Source: Actinomycetota bacterium (lineage in GTDB: Bacteria > Actinomycetota > Actinomycetes > Nanopelagicales > Nanopelagicaceae). Taken from it: a DNA stretch of 39,172 nucleotides. The stretch spans positions 1-39,172 of the forward strand of contig RFMS01000171.1 in the NCBI GenBank assembly GCA_009927575.1, read 5' to 3'. Both the position numbers and the translations under genes were made by a program. Every line of letters starts with the position of its first letter. The first letter of the stretch is position 1. The notes beneath the pieces were generated by a model that was given only the letters and a program-made list of their open reading frames with translations, was not told the origin of the DNA and did not search any database. Positions 27,401 to 31,513 of this stretch are shown in pieces.

Positions 27401-28149
27401 GCCTTGCGATCCGCGTTATTCCATGTCTCGATGTTGATAAAGGTCGAACGGTAAAAGGTGTTAATTTTCAAAATCTCAGTGATGCCGGCGATCCGGTTTC
27501 ACTCGCTGAACATTACGGAACCAGCGGGGCGGATGAAGTTACCTTTCTCGATATCTCTGCATCTGTAGAAGAGCGAGCAACAATTCTTGATGTCCTGCGA
27601 CGTACAGCCGAAACACTTTTTATTCCCATGACAGTTGGTGGGGGAATTCGTTCAACTCATGATGTTGACCAATTATTGCGAGCTGGGGCAGATAAAGTTT
27701 CAGTAAACACGGCTGCGCTTAATCGTCCAGATCTCATCAATGACATCGCAGAGAAATTCGGTTCACAGGTACTCGTTCTCTCCGTAGATGCGCGACGAGC
27801 AGAAGGCAAATTTGAAGTGACAACACATGGCGGCAGACAAGGAACAGATATTGATGCACTGGACTGGATTAGCGATGCCCAACGTAGAGGCGTAGGAGAG
27901 ATTCTGCTCAACTCCATAGATGCTGATGGCACACAAGATGGCTTTGATATAGAAATGATTAGCGCTGTACGTCAAGTTACTTCGTTACCTCTCATTGCAA
28001 GTGGTGGAGCAGGCACGCTCTCAGATTTCCCGGCAGCGCTGAAAGCTGGCGCAGATGCAGTGCTTGCTGCCAGCGTATTTCATTTTGGAAAATTCACGAT
28101 CGCCGATGTGAAACGCGAAATAAGCCATGCGGGATTTGTGGTCCGTTAA
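27397..28149 (+). CDS. hisF: Imidazole glycerol phosphate synthase, cyclase subunit
   Basis: HisF is the barrel subunit that uses HisH-derived ammonia to make imidazole glycerol phosphate and AICAR from PRFAR. It is 250 aa. The catalytic aspartates are in [17 protein letters not shown] and [33 protein letters not shown] and IASGGAGTL are phosphate-binding and barrel motifs. The ATG overlaps priA by 4 bp. The following hisI begins 37 nt later, or overlaps if an upstream start is used. Confidence 0.96.
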
Positions 28150-28186
28150 TGTCGCACCAACAGACGTATTACGAGAGACTAAGCGC

Positions 28187-28537
28187 GTGAGTACTGATAA
28201 CCAATCCGCTATTGACGTAATTCTCAACTCGTTTACAGACGAGAGAACTCTTATACCTGTTATAGCGCAAGATGCGGTAAATAATCAGGTACTGATGTTG
28301 GCGTGGATGAATCGAGCTGCTTTTCAACAAACGATTGCGACGAAACGTGCCACGTACTGGAGCAGAAGTCGGAGTTCACTCTGGGTTAAAGGTGAAACGT
28401 CTGGAAATATTCAAGAATTAGTTTCATTAAGTTTCGATTGTGACGCAGACTCTATTTTGATTCGAGTGACGCAACATGGTCCGGCCTGTCATACCGGTCA
28501 ATTCACATGTTTCCATAACAGCGTGGAACTTCCGTGA
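28187..28537 (+). CDS. hisI: Phosphoribosyl-AMP cyclohydrolase
   Basis: HisI opens the adenine ring of phosphoribosyl-AMP in histidine biosynthesis and is a zinc/magnesium hydrolase. Motifs are VLMLAWMN, TYWSRSRSSLWVKGETSGN, FDCDADSILI (metal ligands) and HGPACHTGQFTCF. GTG 28187 gives 116 aa, normal length, with a GAGAG purine run upstream. An in-frame ATG at 28127 would overlap hisF by 23 bp and add 20 residues. There is no HisE domain. The stop overlaps the next small gene by 4 bp (GTGA). Confidence 0.94.
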   Translation: MSTDNQSAIDVILNSFTDERTLIPVIAQDAVNNQVLMLAWMNRAAFQQTIATKRATYWSRSRSSLWVKGETSGNIQELVSLSFDCDADSILIRVTQHGPACHTGQFTCFHNSVELP

Positions 28538-28695
28538 GTAAGATACTGACTTCAGTACTTCTCATCGTAGGCAGTTTATTTTTGCTTCGGGCGCTTTCAA
28601 TCTCGTCGCGACGTACAAGATTTGAACGGAAACCGCGGAATAGATGGCAAGCGCTCTCAGAGAACGTTGATCCCACACAATCGAACGAGAATTAA
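28534..28695 (+). CDS. Small membrane protein, possible remnant of the Trp-operon-associated membrane protein
   Basis: This is a 53-aa reading frame starting with GTG in a 4-bp overlap with hisI, which favours a real coupled gene. Residues 4-22 form one hydrophobic helix (ILTSVLLIVGSLFLLRALS), followed by a basic segment SSRRTRFERKPRN and a tail WQALSENVDPT. That tail resembles the W-ALD-G-DPT ending of the actinobacterial tryptophan-operon-associated membrane protein family (about 180 aa, several helices), which sits after trpE downstream of hisI in related genomes. If so, this is a one-helix reduced form. The function is unknown, and the family link rests on a short motif and position. Confidence 0.6.
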   Translation: MSKILTSVLLIVGSLFLLRALSISSRRTRFERKPRNRWQALSENVDPTQSNEN

Positions 28696-28727
28696 GTGAG
28701 AAAGAGAATAAAGAGAGATAGACGAGG

Positions 28728-28733
28728 CATAAT
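28728..28733 (+). promoter_or_regulatory. -10 element for leaderless MauE-like gene
   Basis: CATAAT lies exactly 6 nt before the ATG at 28740 with no Shine-Dalgarno sequence, so transcription would start at the start codon. It probably begins a new unit after the his operon. The -35 region is A/G-rich and unclear. Confidence 0.4.
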
Positions 28734-28739
28734 CGCACC

Positions 28740-29201
28740 ATGAGTGATTTTTCAATCAAGGGTTTGCTACCTTGGCTCACACTTATCTCTAGGCTAATTC
28801 TTGGCGGAGTTCTCTTGGCAGCAGGACTTTTGAAAGTTACACATCCCGCGAAATCTGCGATGGCGGTCCGTGCCTATGAAGTACTTCCAGTAACTTTTGC
28901 GAATTTTCTTGGTTACGCGCTCCCTTGGATTGAAGTGGGCATTGCACTTCTTTTAATTCTCGGAGTTGCGGTAAAATCTGCTGCACTATCAGGTGGGTTC
29001 CTGATGTTCCTCTTTATTGTTGCGATTGCTCAAGCCTGGGCCCGCGGATTAACGATTGATTGCGGTTGCTTTGGCGGTGGCGGGCAGGTTGCTAAAGGAG
29101 AGACTAAATATTTGGAAGAGATACTTCGAGATACTGGGCTAGTTTTGTTGGCTCTCTACCTCATGAAGTTTCCGCGTGGAAAATTTTCACTCGATCGCTG
29201 A
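28740..29201 (+). CDS. MauE/DoxX-like membrane protein with CGC motif
   Basis: This is a 153-aa membrane protein with about four hydrophobic helices (roughly 10-30, 50-70, 74-100 and 125-145). The sequence ISRLILGGVLLAAGLLKVTHP at the first helix and the loop motif DCGCFGGGG after TID are typical of the MauE branch of the DoxX-like superfamily. MauE proteins support disulfide formation or thiol redox of exported proteins, and many sit next to a thioredoxin-fold gene. Here a DsbA-like gene follows 91 nt downstream. The two cysteines (near residues 109 and 111) are likely redox-active; this is inferred from the family and neighbour. Confidence 0.8.
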   Translation: MSDFSIKGLLPWLTLISRLILGGVLLAAGLLKVTHPAKSAMAVRAYEVLPVTFANFLGYALPWIEVGIALLLILGVAVKSAALSGGFLMFLFIVAIAQAWARGLTIDCGCFGGGGQVAKGETKYLEEILRDTGLVLLALYLMKFPRGKFSLDR

Positions 29202-29292
29202 TAGATCAATTATCCGAGAGATTGAGTATGCTTCCGATTAGTTCAACGCTACTGAGATAACGAACCCAATCTGAAAGTGGAGTAACAAAGAG

Positions 29293-29982
29293 ATGGCTGC
29301 TAAACCAACCAAGTCGTCAGGTCAGAAAGATAATTTCACGAGAAATCTCGTCATCGGAATGGTTGCGCTCGTCGTCGGAGTTGGTGTTATTTTCAGCGTC
29401 ACTGGAAATCAAACTAAGGTTTCAAGCAAAATCCCAACTATCGCGAGCGAAGCCGAGGGATACGGTTTAGTTTTTAATCCAAGCGCGATGCCGGTAATTG
29501 ATATTTGGGAAGATTTTCAATGTCCAGTGTGCAGAAGTTTTGAGTCGGTCGTCGGTTCCTACTTGTCACAGTTAGTGAAAGAGAATAAAGCGAAAGTGAT
29601 CTATCACCCGCTTTCATTCATTGGACCAGAATCTGTGCGGGCAGCAAATGCAGCGGCATGCGCTGCAGAAGAGTCGAAATTTGATGAATTTCATACCTTG
29701 CTCTACAAAACTCAATCCACTACTGAAAATTCCGGTTTGTGGAGTAATGACAATCTTGTAGGACTTGGCGCAACCGTCGGATTGACTTCAGATTCATTTA
29801 AGAAGTGTGTTAATGATGGCGGCTTCTTGGGTTGGGTAAATAACATCGCCGCAGATGGTGCAAAGAAGAATGTGAACTCAACACCTACTGTATTTGTGAA
29901 CGGCAAAGAGATTGATCGAAATACCCAATACATGGATCTCAATGGCTTTACTGCCGCGTTGGTAGCAGCTGGCCTCAAGTAA
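29293..29982 (+). CDS. Membrane-anchored DsbA-like thioredoxin-fold protein
   Basis: This 229-aa protein has a short basic cytoplasmic tail, one transmembrane helix (about residues 19-37) and an extracytoplasmic DsbA/thioredoxin fold. The redox motif is CPVC in WEDFQCPVCRSFE (near residue 77), and the cis-Pro loop appears as NSTPTVFVNGK. Two more cysteines lie in the helical insertion (NAAACAAEE and FKKCVNDGG). Such proteins oxidise or isomerise thiols in exported proteins in Actinobacteria. The MauE-like gene upstream is a plausible redox partner. GGAG at 29279-29282 lies 10 nt before the ATG. lgt begins 2 nt after the stop. Confidence 0.88.
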   Translation: MAAKPTKSSGQKDNFTRNLVIGMVALVVGVGVIFSVTGNQTKVSSKIPTIASEAEGYGLVFNPSAMPVIDIWEDFQCPVCRSFESVVGSYLSQLVKENKAKVIYHPLSFIGPESVRAANAAACAAEESKFDEFHTLLYKTQSTTENSGLWSNDNLVGLGATVGLTSDSFKKCVNDGGFLGWVNNIAADGAKKNVNSTPTVFVNGKEIDRNTQYMDLNGFTAALVAAGLK

Positions 29983-29983
29983 C

Positions 29984-30796
29984 GTGTTGCGCGTTGCCTT
30001 TCTTCCCTCGCCAACTCGTTCAGTTATTTCGGTCGGTCCTCTCACAATCCACTTCTACGCGCTTGCAATAATTATTGGTGTAGCGGTCGCTATCTATGTC
30101 GGAAATAAGAGATTTGTTGCGATGGGTGGTGCGCCAGGAGTTGTCTCCGATGTCGCGTTGTTTGCCGTACCAGCTGGAGTTATCGGTGGGCGCATGTATC
30201 ACGTCATCACCACACCAGAGCTATATTTTGGAAAGAGTGGCCATTTGGTAGAAATTTTCTTTATGTGGAAAGGTGGATTGGGAATTTGGGGCGCGATATC
30301 ACTTGGATATCTCGGCGCTTATATTGGTTGGCGTAAAAGCGGTAAGGAAAGTTCACTCTCATTTCTTCATCTTGTCGATGCGCTTGCACCAGGAATAGTT
30401 CTTGCGCAAGCGATAGGTCGATGGGGGAATTGGTTTAATCGAGAGTTGTTTGGCCGCCCGACTGAACTTCCGTGGGGCTTAAAAATTCCACTCATAGATC
30501 GCCCTTCGGGATTTCTCAATTTTGAGACTTTTCATCCAACTTTTCTCTATGAGTCGCTTTGGTGTGTTGGAGTAGCGATTGTGCTTTTCTCCATGAGTTC
30601 GCTCGCTCTTAAACCTGGGAGCATCTTTATCGCATATGTCAGCCTTTACACATTGGGTCGAATCTGGATTGAAGCATTGCGAATTGACGATGCACATCAC
30701 ATTCTTGGTCTGCGATTCAACGTATGGATTGCGATTGTGATTTTTCTCTGGTCTACATCGCTTTTATTTCGTCGATTACAGAATAGAACCCGCTAA
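29984..30796 (+). CDS. lgt: Prolipoprotein diacylglyceryl transferase
   Basis: Lgt transfers diacylglycerol from phosphatidylglycerol to the lipobox cysteine of prolipoproteins, the first step of lipoprotein maturation. It is 270 aa and polytopic, about seven helices. The signature GRWGNWFNRELFG is intact, with PAGVIGGRMYHV, MWKGGLGIWGA and the C-terminal GRIWIEALRIDD. The GTG start at 29984 follows the DsbA-like stop by 1 nt. lgt downstream of hisI is conserved in Actinobacteria, although the trp genes normally between them are absent here. Confidence 0.95.
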   Translation: MLRVAFLPSPTRSVISVGPLTIHFYALAIIIGVAVAIYVGNKRFVAMGGAPGVVSDVALFAVPAGVIGGRMYHVITTPELYFGKSGHLVEIFFMWKGGLGIWGAISLGYLGAYIGWRKSGKESSLSFLHLVDALAPGIVLAQAIGRWGNWFNRELFGRPTELPWGLKIPLIDRPSGFLNFETFHPTFLYESLWCVGVAIVLFSMSSLALKPGSIFIAYVSLYTLGRIWIEALRIDDAHHILGLRFNVWIAIVIFLWSTSLLFRRLQNRTR

Positions 30797-30805: not shown

Positions 30806-31513
30806 ATGCCGCTAACAGATGTCCATGCCCGTAATGAACATCATCTCGTTCATCGATCAGGTTGGCTACGCGCCGCAGTTCTCGGTGCAAATGATGGGTT
30901 AGTTTCGACCGCAAGTTTGATGATTGGCGTTGCAAGTGCGCGCGCAGATAATTTCATTATCACCGCAGGGTTGGCAGGAATTGCAGCAGGAGCGCTCTCC
31001 ATGGCAGTGGGCGAATATGTTTCTGTAAGTTCTCAAAATGACATTGAAGATGCCGATCGTCGGTTAGAAGAAGAACACCTTCGCATTGACCCAGAAGGTG
31101 AGTTAGAGGAACTCGCGCATATTTACCAAAATCGTGGTTTGCCTAAGGAATTGGCGATGCAAGTTGCCATTGAAATGCATAAAGGTGATGCGCTTGAAGC
31201 ACATCTTCGTGATGAACTGGGACAGTTTGAACATACAAAAGCTCGACCAGTGCAAGCCGCGATTGCATCGGCGCTTTCATTTACTGCTGGCGGATTTGTG
31301 CCATTTATTGGCGCACTCGCACCTACGCTTGGCGCGAAGGCTCTCAGTATTGTGGCGATTACTTTGGTCGGTTTATTGATCTCTGGAATTGTGAGCGCTC
31401 GAACTGCTGGCGCACCTCTTGGTAAAACCACGCTTCGAGTATTTCTTGGCGGGTCAATAGGAATGGCGATTACTGCTGGAATTGGCCAACTCGTTCACTT
31501 ATCGGGGCTTTAA
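30806..31513 (+). CDS. VIT1/CCC1-family iron/manganese transporter
   Basis: This 235-aa protein has N-terminal HRSGWLRAAVLGANDGLVSTASLMIGVA, then a helix with SMAVGEYVSVSSQND, a cytoplasmic acidic domain (about 70-140) with EDADRRLEEEH and IEMHKGDALEAHLRDELG, and three further helices ending near the C terminus. GANDGLVS and the MAVGEYVS motif are hallmarks of the VIT1/CCC1 family, which moves Fe2+ or Mn2+ across membranes, with the acidic domain binding metal. Direction and substrate cannot be decided from sequence. It is inserted between lgt and gltB and appears to have its own leaderless promoter. Confidence 0.9.
   Translation: MPLTDVHARNEHHLVHRSGWLRAAVLGANDGLVSTASLMIGVASARADNFIITAGLAGIAAGALSMAVGEYVSVSSQNDIEDADRRLEEEHLRIDPEGELEELAHIYQNRGLPKELAMQVAIEMHKGDALEAHLRDELGQFEHTKARPVQAAIASALSFTAGGFVPFIGALAPTLGAKALSIVAITLVGLLISGIVSARTAGAPLGKTTLRVFLGGSIGMAITAGIGQLVHLSGL

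Follow-up and report, generated by a model that had tools for sequence, protein, structure and literature searches.

The locus examined here raises the question of how a DsbA-type protein is returned to its oxidized state in the Nanopelagicaceae, which are small-genome bacteria that probably live in freshwater. Two membrane proteins, DsbB and VKOR, have mainly been described as reoxidizing DsbA in bacteria (see also PMC11208910). VKOR recharges DsbA or MdbA and delivers the electrons to menaquinone (PMC12421883; PMC9974433), and a vkor deletion mutant of M. smegmatis depends on cystine to stay alive (PMC12421883). The window, i.e., the whole stretch of 39,172 nucleotides that was analyzed, comes from a MAG of 1.41 Mb (80.6% complete). 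The first-pass annotation of this DNA had described a four-helix MauE/DoxX-like protein with a DCGCFGG loop encoded directly before a CPVC-containing DsbA gene, with lgt beside it, and had suggested that the two cysteine pairs exchange electrons as an alternative disulfide-forming module in a reduced genome. Pfam matches, an AlphaFold2 model and the coordinates (Table 1) confirmed this arrangement, and, in line with the suggestion, neither the VKOR nor the DsbB (PF02600) profile had a match in the source genome at its 80.6% completeness. We consider it likely that MauE stands in for VKOR and reoxidizes the neighboring DsbA at the membrane.

Table 1. Features of the mauE-dsbA-lgt locus; positions are those of the window.
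Feature	Coordinates	Strand	Evidence
Integral membrane protein of the MauE family (PF07291) with four predicted TM helices, 153 aa	28740..29201	+	Pfam; AlphaFold2; 43 order members including its own
Codons of C108-G109-C110, TM3-TM4 loop	29061..29069	+	Sequence; invariant 43/43; predicted outside by charge in 37/43
DsbA-like thiol-disulfide oxidoreductase of the Mt-DsbA/MdbA type, membrane-anchored, 229 aa	29293..29982	+	Pfam; phmmer
Active-site CPVC codons (residues 77-80)	29521..29532	+	Sequence; both cysteines 61/61
Codon of C123, first of the second conserved DsbA cysteine pair	29659..29661	+	60/61
Codon of C172, second of the second conserved DsbA cysteine pair	29806..29808	+	60/61
lgt, prolipoprotein diacylglyceryl transferase, conserved downstream neighbor	29984..30796	+	Pfam LGT 6.5e-59; after dsbA 61/61
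VIT1-family membrane protein, conserved neighbor	30806..31513	+	Pfam VIT1 3.1e-62; 58/61 fetched stretches

The membrane protein matched the MauE profile with an E-value of 1.9e-27 and 96.5 bits, against a Pfam cut-off of 27, and gave an additional weaker match to DoxX (E 6.1e-8). It had no match to the VKOR profile (PF07884) at E-values up to 0.1. C108 and C110, found in the context TIDCGCFGGGG, are its sole cysteines, and the two cysteine pairs including a CxxC that characterize VKOR are not present. No mau genes and no MauD, which would mark the MauE of methylamine utilization proper, adjoin it; the neighbors are PRA-CH (hisI), dsbA, LGT and VIT1 by Pfam, as well as hisF and gltB by eye. 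The protein thus falls into the MauE family and into neither the VKOR nor the DsbB family, although it probably works like these two.

An AlphaFold2 model, built from 52 sequences (the window protein and 51 of 54 non-redundant homologues), reached a mean pLDDT of 93.1 and comprises four long helices together with a short one, the CGC motif lying between long helices 3 and 4. The motif itself (C108, G109 and C110) is invariant in all 43 MauE homologues of the order, the window included. Summed net charge favors an N-in/C-in orientation in 37 of the 43 homologues, and this pattern predicts that the CGC loop lies on the outer side of the membrane. The topology is not firm, since loop 1-2, which is predicted on the same outer side as the CGC, carries a net positive charge (+1.2). 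Other residues invariant in 43/43 include R18, K32, Y46, E65, R102, Y124, R130 and D131, and as a guess some of the invariant residues (R18, K32, Y46, E65, etc.) might line an acceptor site. Among the matches listed, the closest named relative is that of Candidatus Planktophila sp. BS7. One relative (L125) reads SIDGGCFGGGG, with GGC replacing CGC, which may reflect either a sequencing error or the loss of one cysteine.

The partner is a DsbA-like protein. It matches Thioredoxin_4 (1e-29) and DSBA (1.3e-8) in Pfam, and phmmer against PDB chains placed M. tuberculosis DsbA (4k6x, 4.1e-13; 4jr4, 4.7e-13) and MdbA (6bo0, 6.3e-12) as its nearest solved relatives. It combines the CPVC site with a cis-Pro loop STPTV, as is characteristic of the Mt-DsbA/MdbA type, and inspection by eye shows a hydrophobic segment at its N terminus. 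M. tuberculosis DsbA is described as having a second cysteine pair and an N-terminal anchor (PMC12421883), and both traits were found in the window DsbA. A CPxC motif is kept in 61/61 genomes of the order and the second pair, C123/C172, in 60/61, the exception (G031) being a shortened ORF. In that genome dsbA is split over two frames (L051, G031:C39) while the adjoining VKOR and lgt look intact, and the split is probably an assembly error. Regarding spacing in the window, dsbA starts 91 nt past the stop of the MauE gene and lgt 1 nt past that of dsbA.

The distribution of the candidate reoxidases was examined in 61 genomes of the order, including the window's own, all of which belong to the one family Nanopelagicaceae. 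DsbA (Thioredoxin_4) was present in 61/61, with one Thioredoxin_4 locus found per genome, and DsbB had no match in any of the 61. MauE alone was found in 43 genomes, VKOR alone in 16, both in none and neither in two (G046 and G054; Fisher p 7.5e-13). The MauE count excludes DoxX-like matches of lower strength (E-values of 6.6e-7 or above); the split is clear, with a gap from E 2.3e-23 to 6.6e-7, and the cut was set after the table had been inspected. All four cysteines occupy the same positions in 16/16 VKORs of the order, which thus look functional. In an extended set of 251 order genomes the respective numbers were 153, 64, 5 and 29 (MauE only, VKOR only, both and neither; p 1.1e-30), so that with totals of 158 for MauE and 69 for VKOR the two co-occur in 5 genomes, against about 43 expected. 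Restricting the set to the best 108 genomes (completeness of 90% or more, contamination of 5% or less) gave 69, 32, 1 and 6 (p 3e-20). All 17 single-contig genomes of the order carry MauE and had no VKOR match. Of the three other genomes drawn from the window's genus, G290 (98% complete) and G324 (84%) carry MauE and gave no match to VKOR.

All five genomes with both genes (G285, G303, G392, G407 and G420) were kept in the counts. The VKORs of G285, G303 (two copies) and G392 are divergent, with 35-41% identity to the best-scoring of five family VKORs. G407 and G420 carry a family-type VKOR (64 and 69% identity) alongside MauE, on contigs of 6 and 12 kb. In two of the genomes the divergent VKOR (in G303 one of its two copies) lies next to a second divergent DsbA-like ORF, the two being transcribed away from one another (L218, G303:C7, 997-2448; L219, G392:C18, 440-1891), perhaps forming an auxiliary second module. 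Regarding genomes with neither gene, G046 and G054 are 98 and 95% complete, respectively, and have DsbA and no DsbB match, and a third member of the window's genus (G278, 90% complete) also shows neither MauE nor VKOR; either missing contigs or a further reoxidase would explain these cases.

MauE adjoins DsbA in 43/43 order genomes that carry it, the window included, which fits the conserved adjacency expected from the first-pass annotation. It lies directly 5' of dsbA in these 43 of the 61 genomes, with a called gap of -77 to +91 nt. Together with the invariant CGC, this adjacency argues that the pairing is not due to chance. VKOR occupies the MauE slot before dsbA-lgt in 4 of the 16 VKOR genomes (G016, G031, G048 and G051). 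In the remaining 14 genomes dsbA lies 11-225 nt from its upstream gene, and 12 of these 14 have VKOR elsewhere. The gene upstream of the dsbA-lgt block is trpA (by eye) in 54/61 genomes and hisI in 7/61, and the window (stretch 28127-28740) is one of the latter.

The DsbA stays while its partner changes between MauE and VKOR. For example, the DsbA of the VKOR genome G016 shares 75% identity with that of the MauE genome G033, and the DsbA of G051, also a VKOR genome, shares 66% identity with that of the MauE genome G004 and at most 54% with that of any VKOR genome. On a tree of the lgt and VIT1 proteins, which are two short proteins beside the trait and make the number of switches approximate, the MauE/VKOR state changed at least 9 times; label shuffles required 14.3 changes on average and 9 at minimum. 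Seven independent supported pairs differ in MauE; on average VKOR showed the reverse change in 6.1 of them, and no pair had both genes changing alike (median p 0.031, range 0.016-0.063). The replacement of VKOR by MauE in the Nanopelagicaceae is therefore well supported, and the idea of an alternative disulfide-forming module gains support from this exchange across the family, in four genomes within the same slot.

It could be argued that MauE has no redox role and instead serves the structure or assembly of DsbA or Lgt, that an unknown enzyme, oxygen or small disulfides reoxidize DsbA in MauE genomes, and that the mutual exclusion records lineage history. The 29 of 251 genomes with neither gene, many of them incomplete, would be compatible with such an explanation. 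However, the CGC motif is invariant in 43/43 homologues, and at least 9 switches with opposite sign in independent pairs are hard to obtain from lineage history alone, which makes a purely structural role improbable. Since MauE swaps with VKOR beside the same DsbA, sometimes in the same slot, and keeps its CGC without exception, it most likely does the job of VKOR.

As reoxidase, MauE would act as follows. DsbA would oxidize exported proteins and be left reduced; the exposed disulfide of C108-G-C110 would then take two electrons from the CPVC site of DsbA, and MauE would deliver them to an acceptor in the membrane, most likely a quinone, so that the CGC disulfide is renewed. The contact between CGC and CPVC, the direction of electron flow and the quinone as acceptor are all deduced features of this scheme. 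Because no second cysteine pair of MauE is conserved, the CGC would need to be accessible to DsbA as well as to the acceptor.

The opposite direction of electron flow also has to be considered. DsbD/CcdA keeps DsbC or CcmG reduced, and MauE might similarly pass electrons outward and keep the DsbA-like protein reduced, making the pair an isomerase or reductase module. The source genome does contain a match to DsbD_TM (CcdA-type). Moreover, three MauE relatives (L110, L111 and L132) appear by eye to be fused to thioredoxin-like domains with CxxC; we count these fusions in support of a reoxidase, yet such TlpA/thioredoxin-like domains often belong to reductive pathways. Against a reductive role, MauE is replaced by VKOR, a family whose bacterial members oxidize DsbA, and the nearest solved relatives of the window DsbA, namely Mt-DsbA and MdbA, are described as disulfide-forming (PMC3792642; PMC9974433). 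Furthermore, CcdA does not track MauE, being found in 34/43 MauE and 11/16 VKOR genomes (p 0.50) at a cut of E 1e-8, near which many matches fall, so that CcdA absences are soft. An explanation of the MauE/VKOR exclusion by CcdA or a reductive pathway was rejected for lack of this association. Given the swap with VKOR and the missing link to CcdA, we regard a reductive module as unlikely and prefer MauE as the reoxidase of DsbA.

In 61/61 order genomes dsbA is followed by lgt, while VIT1 and gltB lie within the fetched stretches in 58/61 and 59/61, respectively; the VIT1-family neighbor is not thought to be part of the redox pair. A pair serving one dedicated client, e.g., a lipoprotein or an envelope enzyme, would be in keeping with the constant lgt, as well as with other MauE/DoxX loci that are described as single-product clusters, i.e., for lasso peptides (PMC6409603; PMC9266682) and RiPP candidates (PMC7794033). 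However, none of the 61 family genomes gave any Thioredoxin_4 locus but this one, MauE swaps with VKOR, and lgt is retained whichever partner is present. A dedicated client in place of general disulfide formation thus seems very unlikely to us.

Outside the order, a homologue scan yielded at least 596 stretches and at least 527 confirmed relatives, of which 80 named loci were kept. Among the matches listed, DsbA-linked MauE occurs in Nanopelagicaceae, Kribbella, Janibacter, Phycicoccus and Nocardioides, and MauE adjoins DsbA at 78 of the 80 named loci, including three at which the longest DsbA ORF starts before MauE and which were counted as adjacent; at the other two the contig breaks off 49 nt or less from the gene. 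VKOR was also present in 11 of 14 chosen non-Nanopelagicaceae genomes carrying the MauE-DsbA pair, and had no match in the other three or in IMCC25003, a complete genome with MauE. Isolates with the pair but no VKOR match include Phycicoccus sp. Soil748, Nocardioides potassii KLBMP 9356 and Kribbella sp. VKM Ac-2568. In 198 genomes of the phylum, where MauE of any kind was counted at E <= 1e-10, MauE and VKOR occurred together in 18 genomes against 16.8 expected (p 0.73), and the exclusion as a phylum-wide rule was rejected, the two genes being independent. Adjacency to DsbA as a general property of MauE was likewise rejected, as only 3 of 29 phylum MauE loci, read with 1.5 kb flanks, have a profile-found DsbA neighbor, and all three are of the same class. 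The pairing therefore belongs to the DsbA-linked type of MauE and the exclusion to the streamlined family, which seems to keep only one DsbA system. As for the proposal of a module of reduced genomes, the pair is not special to such genomes, being also found in Kribbella, Phycicoccus, Janibacter and Nocardioides, often with VKOR present. The confinement of the exclusion to the Nanopelagicaceae counts against MauE as reoxidase, as do the VKOR genes in most of the chosen genomes with the pair, the rarity of DsbA neighbors at the phylum MauE loci, the 2 of 251 genomes with MauE and a family-type VKOR and the 29 of 251 with neither gene.

The pair can be compared with several known systems. In the VKOR-DsbA pair of M. 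tuberculosis and the VKOR-MdbA pair of Actinomyces oris, a membrane-anchored DsbA of the same type likewise has a small polytopic partner, and in the Nanopelagicaceae these partners swap, in four genomes within the same gene slot; however, the MauE of the window has no PF07884 match and one CxC pair, in contrast to the four conserved cysteines of VKOR. The DsbA-DsbB system of Proteobacteria similarly has a four-helix membrane protein with a cysteine pair beside DsbA. DsbB is a four-helix membrane protein with a CxxC and a loop cysteine pair, whereas the window MauE has a single CGC pair, and PF02600 had no match in the source genome or in any of the 61. MauE-MauD, involved in the maturation of methylamine dehydrogenase in Paracoccus, includes a member of the same Pfam family as the window protein. 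MauE has been speculated to aid disulfide formation in methylamine dehydrogenase (PMC7794033, citing van der Palen 1997), and mauE homologues have also been reported in candidate RiPP clusters (PMC7794033). In contrast to that system, the MauE of the window has no mau neighbors and is partnered by DsbA, not MauD, and it looks like a general reoxidase.

By their description, the gene pairs SviE/SviF, MslE/MslF and AboE/AboF of class I lasso peptides are also alike, with a DoxX-type membrane protein beside a CxxC thioredoxin/DsbA gene; those pairs, unlike the one examined here, sit in secondary-metabolite clusters. They have been proposed to act in disulfide formation (PMC6409603; PMC9266682). 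According to PMC9266682, the loss of the DoxX-type or the thioredoxin gene in Streptomyces lasso clusters lowered yield or export, but the product still formed after deletion of sviF, mslE or mslF. That such losses did not stop the product is also counted against a reoxidase, although the Streptomyces hosts may hold other reoxidases.

Pairs of DsbA and a reoxidase are known as such; judging from the sequences, what is probably new is a pair with a different reoxidase family. In the open-access literature that was searched we found no paper joining MauE with VKOR and DsbA, or DoxX with VKOR. We lean towards the idea that MauE proteins with the DCGCFGGGG loop form a third class of enzymes that reoxidize DsbA, one that has no sequence kinship with DsbB or VKOR and works with a single CxC pair in place of two pairs, that MauE and VKOR replacing each other next to the same DsbA amounts to recurrent natural gene replacement, and that the class may fill a gap in VKOR-less Actinobacteria with DsbA/MdbA. 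C. diphtheriae is described as having no VKOR homologue, and the reactivation of its MdbA was called unclear in 2023 (PMC9974433). If the proposed role is true, a reoxidase of the MauE type becomes a concrete candidate for such VKOR-less Actinobacteria. It would also help to explain the occurrence of MauE and DoxX genes beside thioredoxin-fold genes, and would mean that one cysteine pair suffices where DsbB and VKOR use two.

Finally, the MauE model was compared with known structures for a possible kinship by fold with VKOR or DsbB. Foldseek returned no match at E <= 1e-3, and searching the PDB sequences with a profile produced three matches with E-values of 0.046 to 0.51, which were taken as chance. 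The top VIA-align match was NACHO/TMEM35A (9h9e_B; 119 residues, 2.8 Å) with a Z of 12.4, which falls below the value of about 13 at which the program cautions for helical bundles. The VKOR-like 6wvi aligned over 119 residues with a Z of 5.3 and 4.8 Å, amid other helical bundles, and DsbB chains were absent from the best 50 rows. Concerning domain architecture, a natural fusion of MauE to DsbA was not seen, and three relatives from one phylum family (L123, L129 and L135; f13) are about 380 aa long and consist of a multi-helix N-terminal part followed by the MauE domain.
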